Positions 23,121 through 34,190 of a stretch of DNA of 64,000 bases are shown here, piece by piece. This DNA is from Roseococcus sp. SDR (GTDB lineage: Bacteria > Pseudomonadota > Alphaproteobacteria > Acetobacterales > Acetobacteraceae). The translations under genes and the position numbers were made by a program. The stretch spans positions 124,001 to 188,000 of the forward strand of contig NZ_JAHRCU010000009.1 of assembly GCF_019083995.1 (NCBI RefSeq), in the 5' to 3' direction. Under the pieces are notes generated by a model. That model searched no databases. It saw only the letters and a program-made list of their open reading frames with translations, and was not told the origin of the DNA. Each line of letters opens with the position of its first letter. The first letter of the stretch is position 1.

Positions 23121-24965
<1,845 letters not shown>

Positions 24966-24993
24966 GCCTCACCAGCCTCCGGTCGTGACGGAT

Positions 24994-25330
24994 CCGGCCG
25001 CATAGCGGCCGGCGCCGCCCAACCGGGCGCATGGCCCAACGCGGCCGTGGCGCGGCGAAGCCCAAGCGGCGGAGCAGCCGCCCGGCGCCCGAGGGACCCT
25101 ACAAACCCTTCCGGCCGCAACGCGGCCGGCGCCGCCCAACCGGGCGCATGGCCCAACGCGGCCGTGGCGCGGCGAAGCCAAGGCGGCGGAGCCGCCGCCC
25201 GGCGCCTGAGGGACCCTACAAACCCTTCCGGCCGCAACGCGGCCGGCGCCGCCCAACCGGGCGCTGGGCCCCACGCACGCGTGGCGCGGCGAAGCCAAGG
25301 CGGCGGAGCCGCCGCCCGGCGCCTGAGGGC
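24994..25330. repeat. Tandem array of 117-bp structured repeat (copies A1-A3)
   Basis: Three head-to-tail copies start at 24994, 25111 and 25228 with an exact 117-bp period; the third is cut short near 25330. Each copy holds the inverted repeat CCGGCCG/CGGCCGG, a stem just before the linker GAAGCCAAG (linkers at 25057, with one extra base, 25174 and 25291), then a stem with GGA loop (GGCGGC-GGA-GCCGCC in A2 and A3), and ends CCCGGCGCCTGAGGG. A2 and A1 differ by only a few bases. The array fills the gap between typA and the next gene. Open frames through it are by-products of the 117-bp (3 x 39) period. Confidence 0.9.
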
Positions 25331-25339
25331 ATCAGAAAA

Positions 25340-25795
25340 CTACCACCGCGACATGATGGAAACGACGATCTCGGTCGAGGAGGCGAAACCGCGGCTGTCC
25401 TCCCGCCGCAGGCCGACCACCGCGCGCTCCATCGTCCAGGTCTGGTAGGACCCGCGATCATTGCTCGTCACGGCCGAGGCCTGGGCCTGCGGCAGGCAGC
25501 GGTTGATCTCGCCCTGCAGGTTCCGCATGTGCTGCTCGGCCAGGGTGAAGGCGCGGGGCGAATCATCGCGCAGCATCACGGCGTAGTAGACGGCGCGCGG
25601 CGGTGCGCCATCGAAGGGCGGCGCCACGCCGCGCCGCTCACTCACCGAACCGCGCAGGTAATGCGTGCCGGAGGGCAGTTCCACGAAATCCTGCGCGGCC
25701 GCCTGCACGATCTGGCGCAGGCCCTGGCAGAAGGCGTCCTGCGCCTGGGCGGAGAGAGGAGCCAGCAGGGCGGCGGCGAGGAGCAGGCGGCGCAT
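25340..25795 (-). CDS. Small secreted protein of unknown function
   Basis: 151-aa protein with a clear signal peptide (RRLLLAAALLAPLSAQA-Q) and a mature domain of about 130 residues with two cysteines (DAFCQGL and INRCLPQ). No family is recognised. The ATG at 25795 fits the signal peptide; the frame is open further upstream without support. Its stop lies 9 bp from the end of the A3 repeat copy. Confidence 0.75.
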   Translation of the reverse strand: MRRLLLAAALLAPLSAQAQDAFCQGLRQIVQAAAQDFVELPSGTHYLRGSVSERRGVAPPFDGAPPRAVYYAVMLRDDSPRAFTLAEQHMRNLQGEINRCLPQAQASAVTSNDRGSYQTWTMERAVVGLRREDSRGFASSTEIVVSIMSRW

Positions 25796-25910
25796 GGACG
25801 TTCCTTGGAGAAAAAGACACCCCATGAAACGCCATTGACCGGGGAAATCCAATCCCCGGCGTGGAGCAGCACGGACCGTCCCTGCAAGAACGAAGAACCC
25901 TTTGGAGAAT

Positions 25911-26013
25911 CCGGCCGCAAAGCGGCCGGCGCCGCCCAACCGAGCCTATGGCCGGGCGCACCAGCCGCGCGGCGAAGCCAAGCGCGCGGAGCGCGCGCCC
26001 GGCGCTTGAGGGC
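25911..26013. repeat. Structured intergenic repeat, copy B
   Basis: A single 103-bp copy related to the 117-bp array: CCGGCCG/CGGCCGG hairpin, linker GAAGCCAAG at 25974-25982, second stem GCGCGC-GGA-GCGCGC and end CCCGGCGCTTGAGGG. It directly abuts the stop codon of the acetamidase/formamidase gene. The second stem differs in sequence from copies A2/A3 but keeps pairing. Confidence 0.85.
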
Positions 26014-26967
26014 TTAAAACAACAACCCCTTCTTCAGAAGGCCGTGCACGCCCTTCTCGCCATTCACCGTCTGCGTCACGTGGAAGTCCACGGCCAGCGA
26101 GCAGAACTGATAGGCATCGGCCGCGCTGAGATTGGTGCGGCTGGTGATGAAGCCGATCATCTCGCGCAGCGCCTTCTTCATCGCCTCATCCAGGTCCTCA
26201 TGCATGCCCATGGTGATGTAATGCGTGGCGGTCTCGGCGCGCGGATAAGCAAGGTTCGCCCCCTTCATCAGCGTCAGGCGGAAATGGCCGGTCAGGCACA
26301 TCTCCAGCGCGTTGATGCAGACCTCGCCATCGCCCTGCACGCCATGGCCGTCGCCCGCCGAGAAATTGCCGCCCGGCACATGCACCGGCAGGAAGAGCGT
26401 GGCGCCCTCGCCGATTTCCTTGTTGTCCAGGTTGCCGCCATGCGCGCGCGGCTCCTTCGTGGAGATCGGGCCCCACTCGGTGGGCGGCGCCACGCCCATC
26501 ACGCCGAAGAAGGGGCTGAGCGGCAGGGTGATGCCGCCGCCGATCGGCACATGGCCGGTGCGCTTCTCGTGGTCCACGGGAATGTGCAGCATGCGGCGAT
26601 AGGGGAAATCCTCCGGCAGGGTGCCGCCCAGCGGACGGAAGCCGCAGAAGCCCCATTCGGCGCCGAGCTCGATCTTCTCGATATCCACGCGCAGCACATC
26701 GCCCGGCATCGCACCCTTCACGGCCACGGGGCCGGTGAGGATGTGCGGGCCCAGGCGCGGCGGGTTGCTCGCATGGATCGCGGCCAGCGCCGGCGGGATG
26801 GTCAGCCCCAGCGCCTCGGCCTCGGCCACCACGTCGGGCGCGCCGGAGACGCATTGCAGGATGACGAGGTCGCCGCTTTCCACCTCGGCGACCGGCTTGG
26901 TGCTGCCGTCGAAGGTGCCCCAGCGGATGGTCTCGGGTGTGGCGGGAATGCGATGGGTCGCGGGCAT
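26014..26967 (-). CDS. Acetamidase/formamidase family protein
   Basis: 317-aa protein of the FmdA/AmdA family of zinc amidases that release ammonia from formamide, acetamide or related short amides. Family segments are clear: TIRWGTFDGSTKPVAEVESGD at the N-terminus, NLDNKEIGEGATLFLPVHVPGG and SAGDGHGVQGDGEV in the core (with His and Asp metal-site candidates). Length is normal. No amide transporter or regulator is adjacent. Cytosolic. The actual substrate is unknown. Confidence 0.92.
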   Translation of the reverse strand: MPATHRIPATPETIRWGTFDGSTKPVAEVESGDLVILQCVSGAPDVVAEAEALGLTIPPALAAIHASNPPRLGPHILTGPVAVKGAMPGDVLRVDIEKIELGAEWGFCGFRPLGGTLPEDFPYRRMLHIPVDHEKRTGHVPIGGGITLPLSPFFGVMGVAPPTEWGPISTKEPRAHGGNLDNKEIGEGATLFLPVHVPGGNFSAGDGHGVQGDGEVCINALEMCLTGHFRLTLMKGANLAYPRAETATHYITMGMHEDLDEAMKKALREMIGFITSRTNLSAADAYQFCSLAVDFHVTQTVNGEKGVHGLLKKGLLF

Positions 26968-27175
26968 GATCGGCTCCTGACAGAGAGCGCGATGTTGCGG
27001 AACCGCATCGCGCGGTCAACCGCCCCCCGCCGCGCACCAGCATGGGCCTGAGGCCAGATTGCCCGCAGATTGGTCACAGCACAGCGCAGCCGGGATGCGA
27101 TGCGCCCGCGCAAGGGTGCGCTAACCAACGGCGGTGCAGCTTCGCGACGGTATGTCGCGACCTGGCCCCGGACCC

Positions 27176-29161
27176 ATGAACCACCTCAAGATCACGCCCT
27201 TGCTTCTGGGGCTCCTCGCCCTGATCGGCCTCATCACCATCGGCTCCATGACCTATGGAGCGCTCGCGCTGAAACGGTCGGGGCATTCGCTCCAGGGCCT
27301 GCAGCGCGACACCATCACCTCCCTCGTCCATCTGAAGGCGCTGTCCGATGCCTACGCCGTCAGCGTCGTGGACGCCTCCCACAAGGTCCGCAACGGGACA
27401 TTCACCTGGGCCGAGGGCGGGACGGCGCTCCAGCAGGCGCGCGAGGCGATCGACACGGCCTGGGCCGCGCTCCAGGCGATGCCGCTCGCGGAAGCGGCGG
27501 TGCCCCTGATGGAAGAGGCGAGGCGCCGCAAGGCACCGGCCGAGGCGCTGTTCCAGGACCTGGTCGCCACCCTGCGCGCGCAGGATCGTGCCGCGCTCGA
27601 TGCGGTCATCATCCAGCGCCTCTATCCGGTGATCGACCCGCTCACGGAATCGATCAGCGCCATCCTCGACGCGCAGATCGTGGATGCGGACCGCCTTGCC
27701 GCCGCCGCGGCGGGCCAGGCATCCTTCGCCGCCGACACGCAGTCCATCCTCGCGGTGCTGGCCGTGCTGCTGCTGGTCGGCGCGGGCGCCTGCGTCCTGG
27801 TGCGGGTCAGCCGGCCGATCCGGCGCCTGACCTTGGCCACGCAGACCCTTGCGGGCAACGACCTGTCAGTCAGCATCCCCTTCGGCCAGCGGAGCGATGA
27901 GGTAGGCCAGCTGGCGCGGGCCGTCATCATCTTCCAGCAGGGCCTTCGTGAGGCGGAGGCGCATCGCGGCGCTGCCGCCGAAGCCCGCGCCGCCGCCGAC
28001 ATGTCCCGCGGCGCCGCGCTGCGCGCCATGGCGGACCAGGTGGAAACCGAGGCGGGCGGCGCGATGCTCCTGGTCGAGGAACAGATGCGGGAGATGGCGC
28101 AGACCGCGGAGGCCATGGCCGCCGGGAGCCAGGGAATCGCGAGCGACAGCGCCTCGGTCGCCGCGGCGGCCATCGATGCGCAGCGCAACGTGCATGCCGT
28201 CGCCGCGGCCACCGAGGAACTGGGCGCCTCGATCCGCGAAATCACCCATCAGATCGCCGGGGCAAGCGCCGCGACGCGCCGTGCCTCCGAAAAGGGCATC
28301 CAGGGACGGGAAAGGATCGCAACCCTCGCGCAGGAAGTGGACCGCATCGGCGGGGTGGCGCGGGTGATCGCGCAGATCGCCGGCCAGACCAATCTTCTGG
28401 CGCTGAACGCGACCATCGAGGCGGCCCGCGCCGGGGATGCGGGCAAGGGCTTCGCCGTGGTGGCCGGTGAGGTGAAGCAGCTCGCCGCCCAGACGGCCAA
28501 GGCGACGGAAGAGATCGCCCGCCAGGTGCATGAGATCGCGGTCGCGACGGATGGCGCGGTGGAGGTCGTGCGGGAGATGGTCGAGGCGGTGCGCGAAGTG
28601 GATGACGCGGCCATCGCCATCGGCGCCGCCATGGAAGAACAGGCAGCGGCGACGCAGGAAATCTCGCGCGCGGTCTCGGGAACGGCCTCGGCCGCGCATG
28701 CCGTCTCGGAGCGCATCGCCGCGGTGTCGAACCAGGCCGCCGTGACAGGCTCCCGCGCCGAAGCCGTCTCGGAGGGCGCCGCGCGCTCGCGCGATGCGGT
28801 ATCCGCGCTGGGCAAGGCCCTGGTCAGGATCGTGCGCGAGGCATCGCCCGAGGTGGATCGCCGGGCCGAGACGCGCTGGCCCCTCGAACTGCCCACCTGG
28901 CTGGAAGGCATGGGACTCGCGGCTCCGCGCCAGGTGACGGTGAAGAATATCTCCGCCGGCGGGTGCGCCGTGATCGGCGCCGGCGCCGTCAGCGGCACGG
29001 GGCGCCTGCGCCTGGATGCGTTGGAGCCGGGCCTTGTGCTCGGCGCCGAAGCCTTGGCCGGCGGGGAGGAGGCACAGCGACTGCGCTTCGATCCGTCGGA
29101 CAAGGCAGGGCAGCGGCTCCTTGCGGCGGCCCTGGCCCGGCTGGAGCGTCCCGCCGCTTGA
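27176..29161 (+). CDS. Methyl-accepting chemotaxis protein with C-terminal PilZ domain
   Basis: 661-aa chemoreceptor: TM1 about 7-29, a helical periplasmic sensor of the 4-helix-bundle size (30-190), TM2 about 191-212, HAMP to about 265, signalling coiled coil about 300-560 with the tip [23 protein letters not shown]'s conserved core near 403-425, and a C-terminal PilZ-like domain (about 560-655). Both c-di-GMP-binding motifs are present: RAETR (RxxxR) and NISAGG (NxSxxG). It should link attractant sensing to CheA/CheW and to c-di-GMP. No che genes are nearby. The ATG at 27176 is preferred because TM1 follows directly; 27134 and 27153 are alternatives. Confidence 0.93.
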
Positions 29162-29167
29162 GCGGGC

Positions 29168-30148
29168 CTAGAGCAGCCCGCGCTTCTTGAAGAACCAGAT
29201 GGGCAGCACCGCCGTCGCCACCATCAGGATCAGCGCCATCGGGTAGCCGAAGCTCCATTCCAGCTCCGGCATGTGCTGGAAGTTCATGCCGTAGATCGAG
29301 GCGATCAGCGTGGGCGGCATCAGCGCCACGCTCACCACGGTGAAGGTCTTGATGATGTTCGTCTGCTCGACATTGATGATGCCGAGCACGGCGTCCAGCA
29401 GGAAGGTCGCCTTGCTGTTCAGGAAATTCGCGTATTCGACGAGGGAGCGCACGTCCCGCACCAGGGTCTTGATGGTGCCCTGGTTCTCCTTGCGCACGGC
29501 CATCGCCTTCTCGGCGCTGACGAAGGTGAAGATGCGGTTGAGACCGAGCAGGGTTTCCGAGGCACGGGTCGTCACCTCCCCCACCTGGCCCAGCGTCAGC
29601 AGCGCCTCCTTGAGGTTGCGGTCGCGCTTGGTGGCAGGGTCCTCGGCGCCACGCTGGAAGATGTTGTGGCTCGCGCGGTCCATGTCGCTGCTGATGCGCT
29701 CGAGAATATCCGCGAGCCGGTCCACGATCTGTTCGAAGAGGTGCAGCATGACCGCATCCGCGCTGCTCACCAACGCGGGCGTCTTCTGACAACGCGCGGT
29801 GAAGACCGGGAAGGCCTTGGGCGTCGCGTAGCGCACCGTGATCAGCGCCGCCGGCGTGAGCACGAAGGAGATGGGCGTGGAGCCGAAATTGCCGCTCTCG
29901 GTGCCATGCAGGAAGTTCGCGGTCAGCACCAGCGAATCCTCCTCGCGATAGAGGCGTGAGGAGCTTTCGACCTCCTGCATCTCCTCGCGCGTCGGCACCT
30001 CGATGCCGAGTGCGGCCTGCACCGCGTGCTCCTCCTCCAGCGAGGGCTGCAGCAGATCGATCCAGACCGCGCGGCGCAGCGCGTCGGGGTCGCGCACATG
30101 GTCGCGGACCGCGAGGTGGCCGTTCTCGACGGTATAGGTCGTCAGCAT
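29168..30148 (-). CDS. corA: Magnesium/cobalt transporter CorA
   Basis: 326-aa CorA-family channel for Mg2+ (also Co2+ and Ni2+). The large cytosolic N-terminal domain is followed by two C-terminal helices; the selectivity motif YGMNF is at about 286-290, between TM1 and TM2, and the protein ends with the basic FFKKRGLL tail. Length and architecture are standard. It is convergent with the chemoreceptor gene, 6 bp apart. No M-box riboswitch was recognised in the short upstream gap. Confidence 0.95.
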   Translation of the reverse strand: MLTTYTVENGHLAVRDHVRDPDALRRAVWIDLLQPSLEEEHAVQAALGIEVPTREEMQEVESSSRLYREEDSLVLTANFLHGTESGNFGSTPISFVLTPAALITVRYATPKAFPVFTARCQKTPALVSSADAVMLHLFEQIVDRLADILERISSDMDRASHNIFQRGAEDPATKRDRNLKEALLTLGQVGEVTTRASETLLGLNRIFTFVSAEKAMAVRKENQGTIKTLVRDVRSLVEYANFLNSKATFLLDAVLGIINVEQTNIIKTFTVVSVALMPPTLIASIYGMNFQHMPELEWSFGYPMALILMVATAVLPIWFFKKRGLL

Positions 30149-30206
30149 GGGCGGGTCTCCGCGGAGAGGGCGGTTGGCCCGGTTCTAACCACGCGCCCGC
30201 TCGGTG

Positions 30207-30869
30207 TCACGCCACGAGGAGCCGGTTCACGGTTTTGAAATCCGCCGCTTCGGGATGCCGGCCTGAGGCTTTCGTTCCGTCCTCTGGGCGCACCAGTTGG
30301 CAGGTGACGTAACCCGCAGCACGGGCCGCATCCAACTCTTCCGCGACATCGGAGAGGAAGAGAATGCGGGCCGGCGCCGCACCCCAGGCCTCGGCGATGC
30401 GGGCGTAGCTCTGGGCCTCGCGCTTGGCACCCATGCGCGTGTCGAAGAAGCCCTCGAAGAGCGGCTCCAGGTCGCCAGCCTCGGAATGGCGGAACAGCAG
30501 CCGCTGCGCCTGCTCGCTGCCCGAGGAATAGATGGCGAGATGCAGGCCCCGCCCCTGCCAGGCGCGGAGTTCCGCCGCCACATCCGGCCAGAGATGGCCC
30601 TTCAGCGCGCCATCGGCATAGCCCTGCGCCCAGATCAGCCCCTGCAAGGCCTTGAGCGGCGTGACCTTGGCATCGGCGGCCATCCAGCCGCGCAAGGTTT
30701 CGAGCGGATCGCCCGGCACATCGGCCAGGATCGCCGCGACCTCGGGCTCATGCCCGTGGCGCACCAGAAACTCCTCCAACGCCGAGGCCGCGTAGGGAAA
30801 CAGCGCGCGATGCACGAAGGCGATGGAGGTCGTCGTGCCCTCGATGTCCGACAGGATATGCGTGATCAC
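30207..30869 (-). CDS. mtnC: Enolase-phosphatase E1 (methionine salvage)
   Basis: 220-aa HAD-superfamily enzyme that enolises and dephosphorylates 2,3-diketo-5-methylthiopentyl-1-phosphate. HAD motif I is the MtnC-specific DIEGTTTS with D8 and E10; motif II is in AIYSSGS and motif III/IV in ILFLSDVAEELDAA. The GTG at 30869 has GAGG 8 nt upstream. It is the last gene of mtnB-mtnD-mtnC but is separated from mtnD by a 170-bp gap holding large hairpins. Confidence 0.93.
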   Translation of the reverse strand: MITHILSDIEGTTTSIAFVHRALFPYAASALEEFLVRHGHEPEVAAILADVPGDPLETLRGWMAADAKVTPLKALQGLIWAQGYADGALKGHLWPDVAAELRAWQGRGLHLAIYSSGSEQAQRLLFRHSEAGDLEPLFEGFFDTRMGAKREAQSYARIAEAWGAAPARILFLSDVAEELDAARAAGYVTCQLVRPEDGTKASGRHPEAADFKTVNRLLVA

Positions 30870-30908
30870 CGAACGACCCTCACAAGTGCCAATGGCCCCC
30901 CGGTCGGC

Positions 30909-31033
30909 GCCGCGGCTTAGCCGCGGCAACGGAGCAAGCCCTTCAGGAAACGCGAAAACGGGGCCCCCGCGAAGATTTCGCCGGCGCTGCCGCCGCGAAA
31001 GCGGCGGTTGAGTCGGCGAAAGCTTCGTGGGGC
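30909..31033. repeat. Large stem-loop structures between mtnD and mtnC
   Basis: Two structures. First, GCCGCGGC (30909-30916) pairs with its repeat at 30920-30927 around a TTA loop. Second, a long imperfect hairpin pairs 30970-30983 with 31014-31027 (13 of 14 positions), extended by C- and G-runs to about 30963-31033, and encloses an inner stem (30990-30996 with 31001-31007) capped by GAAA on the plus strand. The total of about 125 bp lies inside an otherwise co-directional operon. It could be a mobile REP-type element, an RNA-processing site or an attenuator. Confidence 0.7.
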
Positions 31034-31039
31034 GGCGGC

Positions 31040-31579
31040 CTAGCCGACCACGACCGGGAAACGTTCGGCCATGTCGGTGCCGGTGTAATGCGGCGTCCAG
31101 CCGCTGGTGTCGGTGAAGACGCGCAGCACGGTGAAGTCCGGCGCATCGCCGCTGTCGAACCAGTGCTGCGTGTTGGCCGGCACGCTGATCAGGTCGCCCC
31201 GCGTGCAATGCGCGTCATAGACGCGGCCATTCAGGTGCAGCACGAAATTGCCGGCTCCCTCATGGAAGAAGCGCACCTCATCCTCGGTGTGGATGTGCTC
31301 CTTCAGGAACTTGTCGCGAAGCGCGTCCTTCATCGGATGGTCCGGCGTGAGCTGGATCACGTCTGCCGTGCCGGCCGCGGTCTCGGCCAGGAAGGCGTCG
31401 AGATGCGGCTTGTAGGCGGCCAGCACCGCGTCAGCGGGGGCGCCCTTGGGCAGCGGCGCCACGGGCCAGCGCTCGAAGCGCACGCCCACTTCCTTCAGCG
31501 TGGCGGCGATCGTATCGGCGTCCTCGGTGCGGAGGATCTCCGCCTTGGTCGCGGCATCCCAGACGGTCAGTCGGCTCAT
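31040..31579 (-). CDS. mtnD: Acireductone dioxygenase
   Basis: 179-aa cupin metalloenzyme of methionine salvage. It oxidises the acireductone to the keto-acid precursor of methionine plus formate (Fe form), or off-pathway (Ni form). Metal ligands are H95, H97 and E101 in EHIHTEDE and H139 in TQHWFD. The ATG at 31579 overlaps the mtnB stop (ATGA), so translation is coupled. Cytosolic. Confidence 0.95.
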   Translation of the reverse strand: MSRLTVWDAATKAEILRTEDADTIAATLKEVGVRFERWPVAPLPKGAPADAVLAAYKPHLDAFLAETAAGTADVIQLTPDHPMKDALRDKFLKEHIHTEDEVRFFHEGAGNFVLHLNGRVYDAHCTRGDLISVPANTQHWFDSGDAPDFTVLRVFTDTSGWTPHYTGTDMAERFPVVVG

Positions 31580-32187
31580 CGCGGCAATCTCCGTGCTTCC
31601 AGCTCGCATTCGAGCATGAATTCCAGCGCCTCCAGGCGCAGCAGGGCGCCCGGCATGTCATCGGCCCATACATAGACGCCGTGGCCGCGGATCAAGTAGC
31701 CCGGCGGGTGGGCGGGGTCCGCCTCCCAGGCCTCGGTCACGCGGGCCTGCAGCCGTGCAATGTCCTGGTCATTTTCCAGCACGGGCAGCCGGATCGCCGC
31801 CTCATGCGTCGGCAGGCCGGGAAAGGCCTTGAGCAGTTCATAGCCCGCGAGCGTGATATGCGGCCCCGCAAGGCGCGACAGCACCGTCGCCGGCACGGAA
31901 TGCCCGTGCAGCGCGGCGCCCGCCTTGGGGAAGCGCCGATAGATGCCGCAATGCAGCCCGGTCTCAGCCGATGGGCGGAGGTTGGACTGCTCCGGCCTTC
32001 CGTCGAGGTCCACCGTCATCACCCCGTCCTCCGGGATGAAGCCTTTGTGAAACCCGGAGCGCGTGATGGCGATGCGGCCATCCGCGAGACGGAGGGAGAT
32101 GTTGCCGGCGGTAGCCGGCACCCATCCCCGCTGATCCATCCGGCGCCCGGCCGCGCGAATCGCCTCGGTCGCTTCGGAAGGAATCAC
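31576..32187 (-). CDS. mtnB: Methylthioribulose-1-phosphate dehydratase
   Basis: 203-aa class II aldolase-fold zinc enzyme of methionine salvage that dehydrates 5-methylthioribulose-1-phosphate. Expected ligands and catalytic residues are E75 (SAETGLH), H94 and H96 (LHGHS) and a histidine in IRGHGVYVW near 172. The GTG at 32187 with GGGAG 6 nt upstream was chosen; the frame stays open further upstream but that part overlaps tatA antisense composition. It is preceded by tatA by 34 bp on the same strand. Confidence 0.92.
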   Translation of the reverse strand: MIPSEATEAIRAAGRRMDQRGWVPATAGNISLRLADGRIAITRSGFHKGFIPEDGVMTVDLDGRPEQSNLRPSAETGLHCGIYRRFPKAGAALHGHSVPATVLSRLAGPHITLAGYELLKAFPGLPTHEAAIRLPVLENDQDIARLQARVTEAWEADPAHPPGYLIRGHGVYVWADDMPGALLRLEALEFMLECELEARRLPR

Positions 32188-32221
32188 GCCCGTCTCCCGC
32201 CGGGCCAAGCCCGGCGCGTGT

Positions 32222-32503
32222 TCAGGCCGCCGGGCGGCCGGTGGCGGTGGTGCTGCCGCTGGCGGGCTCGGCCGTGGCGGCCGTCGTCGTCGCACCCTGC
32301 GGGCCCGCGATGGTGCCGGCCGGCGGGGCCGATTCGGCGGCCATGGAAGCGTCGGCGGGCTTCTCGTCTTCCTTGATGTTCGCCTTGAAGGACTTGATCC
32401 CCTTCGCGACGTCACCCATCAGGCCGCTGATCTTGCCGCTGCCGAACAGCAGCAGAACGACCAGCAGAACCACCAACCAATGCCAAATGCTGAAAGAACC
32501 CAT
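32222..32503 (-). CDS. tatA: Twin-arginine translocase subunit TatA
   Basis: 93-aa TatA: short N-terminus (GSFSIWHWL), one membrane helix about 7-21 ending in the conserved F20-G21 hinge, an amphipathic helix ([22 protein letters not shown]), then a disordered Ala/Thr/Ser-rich tail. It forms the pore for folded, RR-signal proteins. tatB and tatC, usual neighbours, are not in the window; instead it stands 34 bp ahead of the methionine-salvage genes. Confidence 0.93.
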
Positions 32504-32654
32504 CGTCGCGCCTCGATCCCGTGGTGCTTATGCTGGCGGGAACCTAGTGTGCGCCCGCTCCGAGCGCAAACTCCCCTCCCGACAAGGCCTCTATGTGGGA
32601 CGCGGCCGGCCCGGCCGCAATGGGAAATTCATTCAGGTGCGGTTCAGCGCAATC

Positions 32655-32683
32655 TTGCGCCGTCGTAAGAAATCCTCCATATG
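32655..32683 (+). promoter_or_regulatory. Candidate terC promoter
   Basis: TTGCGC (32655-32660) and CATATG (32678-32683) are separated by 17 bp, about 120 bp before the terC ATG, within the 300-bp gap between divergent tatA and terC. The rest of this gap holds only the stem-loop noted below and no other gene. Confidence 0.35.
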
Positions 32684-32709
32684 GCCCGCCATCCGGGCCC
32701 CTCTGGCGC

Positions 32710-32730
32710 GGGTGAAGAGAAACTTCACCC
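32710..32730 (+). promoter_or_regulatory. Stem-loop in the terC leader
   Basis: Perfect 8-bp stem GGGTGAAG/CTTCACCC with AGAAA loop, followed 14 nt later by a TTTTT run (32746-32750). It lies in the putative 5' leader of terC and could be a leader regulatory element. I did not find the conserved yybP-ykoY (Mn riboswitch) sequence. Confidence 0.4.
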
Positions 32731-32803
32731 ACGTGATGTCGGATGTTTTTGCCATCTCGCGGGGCAAAACCATCGCACCCCGCCCAGAGGAGTATGACAA
32801 ACC

Positions 32804-33808
32804 ATGGAATTTCTGGCGCTCGAATGGGTCGGCAAGCCGATCTGGATGTGGGCGGGCTTCCTCGCCATCGTCGTCGCCCTGCTCGCCTTCGACCTCGGTG
32901 TGCTGAACAAGGAAGACAAGGAGATGGGCATCCAGGAAAGCCTGGTCCTCTCCGCCTTCTATATCGGCTTCGCGATCCTCTACGGCATCCTCATCTGGTG
33001 GGCCTATTCCGCCGGCCACATCACGACGAGTGACGGCACGCATGCCGGCATCACCTATTTCACCGGCTTCTTCATCGAGAAGGCGCTGTCGATCGACAAT
33101 GTCTTCGTGATCAGCCTGATCTTCGGCTACTTCGCCATCCCGCGGAAATACCAGTACCGCGCGCTGGTCTGGGGCATCATCGCCGTCATCATCCTGCGCG
33201 GCATCATGATCGCGATCGGCGCGGCCCTGGTTCAGGAGTATTCCTGGATCCTCTTCATCTTCGGCGCCTTCCTGATCGGCACCGGCGTGAAGATGCTGAT
33301 GGTGCCGGAGAGCGACCCGGACATCTCGAAGAACCCGGTCGTGCGCTTCATGAAGAAGCACATGCGCGTCTCGGACAAGCTGCATGACCAGAAGTTCTTC
33401 GTCCGCGAGCCCGACCCGAAGACCGGCAAGCTGGCGCTGACGGCCACGCCGCTCTTCCTCGCGCTGGTGGTGATCAACATCGCCGACCTGATCTTCGCGG
33501 TGGACAGCGTGCCGGCGATCTTCGCCATCACGACCGATACCTTCATCGTCTACACCGCGAACATCATGGCCATCCTCGGCCTGCGCGCCCTCTACTTCGC
33601 GCTGGCCGCCATGGTGCACCGCTTCGAGTATCTGAAGTACGCGCTGGCCATGGTGCTGGTGTTCATCGGCGTGAAGATCTTCTGGAACCAGATCTTCGGG
33701 AAGCTGGACCCGGCCTTCTCGCTCGGCGTCACCGGCGCGCTGATCGCGGGCGGCATCGTCTTCTCGCTGTACAAGACGCGCGAGCAGGCGGGCAGCGGGC
33801 ACAAGTAG
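32804..33808 (+). CDS. TerC/Alx family membrane protein
   Basis: 334-aa integral membrane protein with about nine helices of the TerC/Alx family, linked to Mn2+ export and metal homeostasis. Conserved intramembrane acids are visible in SIDNVFVISLIF and FAVDSVPAIFAI, the family's duplicated D-rich motifs. GAGGAG stands 11 nt before the ATG. Structured-repeat copy C begins 8 bp after its stop, and a strong terminator follows. Confidence 0.94.
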   Translation: MEFLALEWVGKPIWMWAGFLAIVVALLAFDLGVLNKEDKEMGIQESLVLSAFYIGFAILYGILIWWAYSAGHITTSDGTHAGITYFTGFFIEKALSIDNVFVISLIFGYFAIPRKYQYRALVWGIIAVIILRGIMIAIGAALVQEYSWILFIFGAFLIGTGVKMLMVPESDPDISKNPVVRFMKKHMRVSDKLHDQKFFVREPDPKTGKLALTATPLFLALVVINIADLIFAVDSVPAIFAITTDTFIVYTANIMAILGLRALYFALAAMVHRFEYLKYALAMVLVFIGVKIFWNQIFGKLDPAFSLGVTGALIAGGIVFSLYKTREQAGSGHK

Positions 33809-33815
33809 TTGATGT

Positions 33816-33885
33816 CCTCAGAGGCCGGGCGCGCGCATCCGCGCGCTTGGCTTCGCCGCACAAGCGGCGGGCCGCATTCGCGGCC
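33816..33885. repeat. Structured intergenic repeat, copy C (inverted)
   Basis: 70-bp copy in the opposite orientation: read on the minus strand it has GGCCGC/GCGGCC, stem GCCGC-TTGT-GCGGC, linker GAAGCCAAG (33846-33854 on the plus strand as CTTGGCTTC), stem GCGCGC-GGAT-GCGCGC and CCCGGCCTCTGAGG. It lies between the terC stop and the terC terminator. Confidence 0.85.
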
Positions 33886-33932
33886 TCGACCCTCCAGGCC
33901 GCTGGTCCGGATTCGGTGAGGACGCAAACACG

Positions 33933-33963
33933 AAGGGCGGTGCCGCAAGGCACCGCCCTTTTT
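33933..33963 (+). terminator. Rho-independent terminator of terC
   Basis: Perfect 12-bp stem (33933-33944 with 33949-33960), GCAA tetraloop and a TTTTT run at 33959-33963. This is the clearest intrinsic terminator in the window and ends terC transcription on the plus strand. Confidence 0.92.
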
Positions 33964-34017
33964 CGTTGAATCGGCGCCGCAGCGGCCACTTGGCCGCCCC
34001 TGGCACGCCCCCACGGA

Positions 34018-34097
34018 ATGCGAGGCGAATAGCCGAGCCGGAACGCTTCAGCGTTCCGAAGCCAAGTCGGCGGAGCCGGCGCCCGGCGTTTGAGGGC
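34018..34097. repeat. Structured intergenic repeat, copy D1
   Basis: 80-bp copy: stem GGAACGC-TTCA-GCGTTCC, linker GAAGCCAAG (34058-34066), second stem around GGA, end CCCGGCGTTTGAGGG. It is directly repeated as D2, 93 bp further on. Confidence 0.88.
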
Positions 34098-34110
34098 ACG
34101 ACAACGACGT

Positions 34111-34190
34111 ATGCGAGCCGAATAGGCGAGCCGCAAAGCTTCAGCTTTGCGAAGCCAAGCGCGCGGAGCGCGCGCCCGGCGTCTGAGGGC
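34111..34190. repeat. Structured intergenic repeat, copy D2
   Basis: 80-bp copy: stem GCAAAGC-TTCA-GCTTTGC, linker GAAGCCAAG (34151-34159), stem GCGCGC-GGA-GCGCGC, end CCCGGCGTCTGAGGG. Compared with D1 the first stem has changed on both arms while pairing is kept. It ends 8 bp from the stop codon of the next gene. Confidence 0.88.

Follow-up and report, generated by a model that had tools for sequence, protein, structure and literature searches.

A family of covarying multi-hairpin intergenic repeats in Roseococcus and other Alphaproteobacteria, probably REP-like mobile DNA that spreads independently of RAYT transposases

The window analysed here is a 64,000-nt stretch (C9:124001-188000) of the 5,008,159-base (5.0-Mb) genome of Roseococcus sp. 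SDR, and it carries seven copies of a palindromic repeat whose family, apparently undescribed so far, extends through the genome, the genus and part of the class. The copies, designated A1-A3, B, C, D1 and D2, lie where an earlier note on this DNA had placed them, and their 3' halves align. They belong to three structural types (I to III) and are given below in window coordinates; R1 denotes a 40-position covariance model of the core, derived from 40 copies in this genome.

24992..25095, + strand: copy A1, type I, about 104 nt, with linker GAAGCCCAAG and the end CGAGGG; matched by R1 at E 8e-9
25110..25212, + strand: copy A2, type I, in tandem with A3 at a period of 117 nt
25227..25329, + strand: copy A3, type I, its end 10 nt short of the stop codon of gene 25340-25939 on the minus strand
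25909..26012, + strand: copy B, type I, flanked by two minus-strand genes and ending 1 nt from the stop codon of gene 26014-26967
33815..33888, - strand: copy C, type III, with a GGAT loop and the end TGAGGAC, immediately downstream of gene 32804-33808
34018..34096, + strand: copy D1, type II
34111..34189, + strand: copy D2, type II, in tandem with D1 at a period of 93 nt

The linker GAAGCCAAG is common to the copies and occurs six times in the window, against 0.44 occurrences expected and none of 100 shuffles reaching six, while A1 carries one extra base in it, as had been claimed. The proposed ending, CCCGGC followed by (C/T)TGAGGG, holds for most copies, but not for A1 and C, which end in CGAGGG and TGAGGAC. 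An R1 search revealed no eighth copy in the window; since the seven are among the copies from which R1 was built, their own matches arise by construction, and only the missing eighth is informative.

The element had been described as a pair of hairpins, but a full copy contains three hairpins, the additional one lying at the 5' side as CCGGCCGC-AAC-GCGGCCGG in A2 and A3, in similar form in A1 and B, and as GCGAGGC-GAATA-GCCGAGC in D1. In general, the element is about 80-120 nt long and combines three perfect or near-perfect hairpins with near-fixed linkers and recurrent loops, namely GAATA or AAN, TTCA/TTAT, and GGA with or without one extra base. Type II, the layout of which is ATSCG-hp0-hp1-GAAGCCAAG-hp2-CCCGGCG-YY-TGAGGG (hp0 to hp2 being the three hairpins), comprises 24 pairs in four helices. 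It was defined from an alignment of 26 copies, including D1 and D2 and three from other genomes, chosen by loop and spacing rather than by pairing, and the predicted folds of D1 and D2 reproduce it. Within these 26 copies the hp0 loop is mostly GAATA, and its stem contains two opposed GA steps (CGAG/CGAG) in 13, G-C and C-G pairs in 12, and G.A plus G.G in one; hp1 has mostly a TTCA loop on arms as diverse as GGAAC/GTTCC, GCAAA/TTTGC, GGATC/GATCC and GGGAT/ATCCC. The third hairpin, hp2, shows 26 distinct five-base arms in 251 copies. Copy D2 illustrates the arrangement:

34113..34131, + strand: hp0, GCGAGCC-GAATA-GGCGAGC, with opposed CGAG/CGAG where other copies have G-C and C-G pairs (alignment columns 7-25)
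34132..34151, + strand: hp1, CGCAAAGC-TTCA-GCTTTGCG, with two-sided changes in five of eight pairs (alignment columns 26-45)
34154..34180, + strand: hp2 arm, GCC-AA-GCGCGC-GGA-GCGCGC-(GCCC)-GGC, helices 3 and 4 of the type II alignment
34184..34189, + strand: conserved tail TGAGGG, followed by an A-rich stretch

In type I (A1-A3 and B), a longer arm replaces hp1, so that what had been called the first stem of these copies is, in our reading, part of this arm, closed by CGCCGC/GCGGCG, and not a short hairpin; not every minimum-energy fold of A2 and B has the arm closed in this manner. Type III (C) and other types contain further hairpins. The CCCGGC segment is partly paired, its GGC being the partner of GCC in the linker. 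The resulting helix around hp2 is retained in 281 of 297 copies, swapped on both sides to GGC/GCC in 7 and changed on one side in 9; this set, like the 251 copies above, was gathered by allowing no more than one mismatch in each conserved block, and broken linkers are thus under-counted in it. An alternative 3' hairpin proposed by RNAalifold, GCCC/GGGC, was set aside, and GCC/GGC is preferred because it alone of the two exhibits compensatory change. Outside the hairpins, 78 singleton copies share a weak 5' extension of 16 bases, roughly GCGCCGCCCYCCGAGR, and A makes up 51-74% of the bases at positions +5 to +9 after TGAGGG across 121 copies of this genome and 50-65% across 175 copies of others, whereas the flank frequencies show neither a 3' T-run nor a 5' A-run. 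Some copies with extra 5' hairpins (L121, L123, L126, L127 and L129) run straight into a further palindrome such as CACGAAGGTGAAACCTTCGT, apparently an additional 3' module.

The search of this genome and its relatives that the earlier note had called for carries the family far beyond the seven copies. A strict pattern that does not require pairing finds 42 copies in the genome, and its reversed control none. R1 gives 147 matches at E<=1 among 150 candidates scored, at least 137 of them at E<=1e-3 and the best at E 3e-15. The element was found in all 21 genomes sampled from the genus, with 1-137 copies each, in 36 of 200 of the family, in 38 of 385 of the class, distributed over 21 families, and in 18 of 398 of the phylum, where 17 lie within the class and one marginal match (8.4e-4) outside it. 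Copy numbers are lower bounds in the class and family samples, in which at most 17 and 33 candidates per genome, respectively, were scored, and some single weak matches with E near 1e-3 (e.g., G036, 9.5e-4, and G368, 6.8e-4) are probably due to chance. A scan with a fixed one-arm pattern returned 70 stretches, all in records titled Alphaproteobacteria or a lower taxon, taxonomy being taken from the titles. The titles name Roseomonas, Falsiroseomonas, Neoroseomonas, Roseococcus, Rhodovarius, Rubritepida and Acidiphilium, as well as Niveispirillum, Zavarzinia, Terasakiella, Aerophototrophica and metagenome bins, including ones labelled Rhizobium and Erythrobacteraceae. Similar stretches, none of which covers 80% of the query, are found on plasmids of Niveispirillum, Azospirillum and Tistrella, and a single query gave no match in phages.

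Covariation between the copies, claimed from the seven alone, is present and better than chance in type II as a whole and, by part of the measures, in the hp2 arm. In the type II alignment, two-sided changes affect 13 of the 24 pairs, pairing holds in 93.7% of 622 cells, not one shuffle out of 500 attains any of five measures, and sliding the partners by 1-3 columns lowers pairing to 29-44%. For the hp2 arm (23 distinct rows), two-sided changes are seen in four of six pairs; paired cells, two-sided changed cells and covariation score exceed all 500 shuffles, while the number of pairs changed (316 of 500 shuffles as high) and the pair types (169 of 500) do not rise above them. The tool used warns that relatedness between sequences inflates such tests. 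The fold of A2 by itself does not exceed its shuffled versions in stability (z -0.47), and that of D2 does so only mildly (z -1.77); the case is therefore carried by copy number and covariation rather than by folding energy. These unremarkable folds, the GC-rich genome and the weak single R1 matches elsewhere are what a chance similarity of GC-rich hairpins would predict, an explanation whose probability is practically nil in view of the empty reversed control against 42 copies, the best E value and the 500 shuffles that never matched type II.

The earlier note had taken covariation with an invariant linker to mean selection on structure, a step that we do not follow, since covariation by itself is no proof of selection. 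Half-changed hp2 pairs are almost absent, and element types differ at one orthologous site (below), both of which fit palindrome-templated mutation or copying between elements. In the 297 copies, 1609 of 1629 hp2 pair cells are Watson-Crick, five G-T, four A-C and 11 other, the loop position having been set to maximise pairs, with equal scores for G-T and A-C. The hp1-like hairpins (178 of the 297 copies, some type I arms being misparsed in this set) contain 22 G-T and 36 A-C. By comparison, nine predicted tRNAs from the examined loci, at least one of them doubtful, contain 186 Watson-Crick pairs, 14 G-T and no A-C. A conserved RNA should contain G-U pairs on its own strand, which the present family does not show. 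As G-T is no commoner than A-C, DNA palindromes or template-switch correction fit the copies better than a conserved RNA does; the equal counts give no sign of a selected RNA and point to DNA palindromes or templated mutation. Single-stranded folding of the + strand, either as DNA or as RNA, is mildly suggested by the opposed GA steps of hp0. A fold of reversed D2 shows that the fixed AA/CC in the hp2 arm may give G-U pairs on the - strand, and the folding strand may therefore be either one.

It is thus conceivable that covariation is purely mutational, arising by quasi-palindrome correction through intrastrand template switching, together with gene conversion, without selection on structure. 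The scarcity of half-changed pairs (20 of the 1629 cells are not Watson-Crick), the 26 different 5-nt arms in 251 copies and the difference in arms and types at one orthologous site agree with this account. However, loops that recur and linkers that stay near-fixed across many families (partly an artefact of how the copies were collected) need either constraint or a recent common source, as does the exchange in hp0 between GA/GA and G-C/C-G (13 and 12 of 26 copies), and the GCC/GGC helix also swaps as a pair (7 of 297). As the whole explanation, mutational covariation is possible but rather doubtful; it is, moreover, compatible with mobile DNA.

The position of copies relative to genes was examined for 113 copies found by a regular expression, with genes called by a simple codon-usage caller; five copies lie at stretch ends, and the only one inside a gene (L089 + 2161) is a false match. 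In co-directional regions, 38 copies are antisense and 30 sense (p=0.40), 37 are in convergent regions and two in divergent ones. Compared with element-free regions, taken from the window and from loci that had been selected for their elements, element-bearing regions avoid divergent arrangements (2/91 vs 22/90, p 5e-6) and are enriched in convergent ones (31/91 vs 5/90, p 1e-6); in random 20-kb stretches of two relatives, 26 of 114 and 19 of 59 element-free regions are divergent. The distance from the TGAGGG end to a following start codon is 0-9 nt in 17 of 35 cases, and that to a stop codon at most 12 nt in 41 of 75. In 16 of the 35 cases the spacing to the start codon is 5-9 nt, and since this is the Shine-Dalgarno distance, the tail may serve as the ribosome-binding site of the next gene in those copies of this genome. 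The idea that the 3' end alone abuts genes was dropped as a clue to mechanism, because the weakly conserved 16-nt 5' extension makes 5' distances comparable. Classical terminators are not shown to be replaced in element-bearing regions, a comparison without power, as few terminators were detected anywhere. In the 5.12-Mb contig C1 of the relative G015, 56 of 72 positions, with tandems thinned, fall in the origin-proximal half (p 2e-6), the origin having been placed by the skew of 13 samples, one of which disagreed, and by the record start. Within the window, gene 32804-33808, behind which copy C lies, presumably encodes a TerC family protein, an assignment suggested by its leader and by general knowledge of the family: a terC RNA (RF03067, 49.4 bits) is located at 32685-32751, directly 5' of the gene.

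Occupancy of orthologous sites differs between relatives. At site A, which holds three copies here, G015 has one decayed copy, G019 and G006 have a classical hairpin-plus-T-run terminator and no copy, and G005 and G014 could not be read across. Both this genome and G005 have type I at site B; the copy of G015 is of another type, with a short TTCA hairpin, that of G019 is truncated, and G006 and G014 lack one. At the C/D site, which holds D1, D2 and C here, G019 has a single D-type copy, G015, G005, G014 and G006 are empty, and the gene order after its upstream gene differs in five further genomes. Two side observations concern such intervals. A second long palindromic repeat, GAGCCTCCGGCGGCTGGGGCC...GGCCCCAGCCGCCGGAGG, is intergenic in two relatives that lack the present element at those sites (L278 and L284), and in G014 (L285), in the interval corresponding to the place of C, D1 and D2, a short reading frame closes with 3-4 direct repeats, each about 28 nt long.

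Other sites recur between genomes, with genes named by reading protein sequences and not by a family search. An atpC match was obtained in 188 of 200 family genomes, and of the 30 best-matching atpD-atpC loci 25 were readable. Seven have a copy, always antisense and no further than about 30 nt from the stop codon of atpD, in three genera (g1, g368 and g301), although G550 has none while its congener G495 does; five have unrelated GC-rich hairpins, and 13 have gaps of at most 24 nt. Copies are also present there in two named contigs (L212 and L229) and in G017. The unrelated hairpins (L319, L328, L329, L337 and L342, in five other family genomes) suggest a recurrent need, or tolerance, for a hairpin at this place. 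In addition, same-orientation copies separate putative acetolactate synthase large and small subunit genes (in this genome, G010 and G004), and same-place copies follow a putative rho gene (L164 and L210).

These recurrent sites bear on the possibility that the copies are cis-acting structured RNAs, i.e., hairpins in 3' untranslated or intercistronic regions under selection for mRNA stability, processing or termination, which would repeat because the module is useful. This agrees with the placement at gene ends, with the atpD-atpC copies in three genera and the unrelated hairpins that occupy the same gap, with the acetolactate synthase and rho copies, and with the terminator that stands in two relatives where site A has three copies here. 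Nevertheless, the family shows no G-U excess, no strand bias, balanced orientation to transcription (30 vs 38), no 3' T-run or 5' A-run, and a patchy distribution. Covarying helices are a feature shared with structured cis-regulatory RNAs; G-U tolerance on one strand and fixed gene orientation were not found, the exception being the 7/7 atpD-atpC copies with a single orientation. Rfam 15 gave no match on the copies, either at gathering score over the whole window and in eight loci of other genomes or up to E 1 in window positions 24900-26100. We consider this explanation unlikely for the family, and for most copies it is weaker than mobile DNA.

If the copies are mobile, their enzyme is very probably not the one suggested by the earlier note. 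A partner transposase of the RAYT type (the Y1 HUH transposase associated with repetitive extragenic palindromic, REP, elements) was sought as Y1_Tnp (PF01797), which has no match in this genome and none in 29 of the 38 element genomes of the class; its occurrence in 9 of 38 element genomes and 63 of 347 others shows no association (p=0.39). Classical REP elements moved by RAYT would account for short, palindromic, dispersed, extragenic copies at gene ends, but given this result, GTAG/CTAC near the 3' end in only 2 of 297 copies and no replication-strand bias, we regard them as very unlikely here. The GTAG count refers to the 3' end, and the 5' base frequencies show no GTAG either.

We therefore favour, as the probable reading, REP-like mobile repeats that spread independently of RAYT, a few of them perhaps retained as hairpins between cistrons. 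Copy number, structure and its covariation, placement at gene ends, tandem arrays, differences between species in occupancy, the different types at one orthologous site and the lack of a Y1 match in this genome are observed; mobility and function are inferred. In this reading, the elements would spread as non-autonomous mobile DNA, their loops and linkers being recognised in single-stranded or extruded DNA by a trans-acting enzyme or copying process, whereas the arms could vary freely provided that they remain palindromic. Copies at gene ends would be tolerated and, in places such as atpD-atpC, kept. Hairpin barriers in transcripts are a known property of REP elements and protect upstream mRNA, and the kept copies could act in the same manner in the transcript of either strand.

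Several observations weigh against mobility. No mobility enzyme was found for the family, and among 920 predicted neighbour proteins, clustered, with the 25 largest clusters read from N-terminal sequence only, no recurring gene was recognised as a transposase; going by the beginning of a single sequence per cluster, the largest ones resemble genes for ABC transporters, short-chain dehydrogenases, tricarboxylate receptors and ATP synthase. The longest shared flank word, as a sign of a target-site duplication, reaches at least 6 nt in 14 of 78 copies against 15.4 expected by re-pairing, the 5' end being not sharply defined. At sites A, B and C/D the flanks have diverged and a clean empty site was not found, and the shared atpD-atpC position could be old vertical retention instead of mobility. 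No replication-strand preference exists in G015 (20 + against 18 - clusters on one arm, 18 + against 15 - on the second), which argues against simple insertion into lagging-strand single-stranded DNA. Finally, the opposed hp0 GA steps and recurrent loops would suit RNA as well.

A further variant deserves mention, although we hold it to be quite improbable: a class-wide mobile element defined by structure, with the conserved TGAGGG and A-rich stretch at its end, and copied without any Y1 transposase, tag, terminal inverted repeat or target duplication, in analogy to a short retroposon, through an RNA or single-stranded intermediate and by a host or new enzyme, with the arms rewritten at each copying. 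The family is abundant, recognisable by R1, variable between related species at identifiable sites and present in cultured, named hosts, so that insertion, module swapping and an effect at atpD-atpC are directly testable. More generally, covariation at DNA palindromes without G-U pairs does not automatically indicate a structured RNA.

A text search of the literature, covering few subscription papers, gave no description of the family, and three of its core sequence words were absent from the texts. Among known repeats, REP elements in general share high copy number, extragenic location and gene 3' ends with the present family, but not their single palindrome of 20-40 bp. With MITEs the family can be compared by its ends: a terminal inverted repeat GCCCTC/GAGGGC is weak, with 3' GAGGGC facing 5' CCCTC in 8 of 78 singletons (200 shuffles, mean 2.3, maximum 8), and the flanks give the duplication counts stated above. 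According to PMC3733652, GTAG REP elements with RAYT are likewise short, palindromic, of high copy number, extragenic, located for the most part behind genes or in convergent gaps, and grouped in tandem, but they are 20-40 bp long with one hairpin, in contrast to about 80-120 nt and three hairpins; the present family differs further in having the 3' GTAG tag in only 2 of 297 copies, no Y1_Tnp match in this genome and no association with Y1_Tnp across the class. The CGTC repeats treated in the same source also occur mostly in Alphaproteobacteria, likewise have no known transposase, and their spread without a dedicated one is described there as an open question (PMC3733652). The present family differs in that CGTC precedes TGAG in only 86 of 297 copies and that the alignment of 26 copies shows neither the 8-9-bp stem starting with A-T nor the CCA tail given for those repeats; moreover, CGTC repeats are there stated to be missing in Acetobacteraceae (PMC3733652), whereas genomes titled Acetobacteraceae do carry the present family. 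Structured RNAs of Rfam resemble it in covarying helices and recurrent loops, and differ in that the copies have no Rfam 15 match and no G-U signature. BIME, ERIC and the rhizobial RIME are mosaic palindromic intergenic repeats of about 100 nt that occasionally lie within operons, and in this general description, though not by sequence comparison, they are like the family found here.

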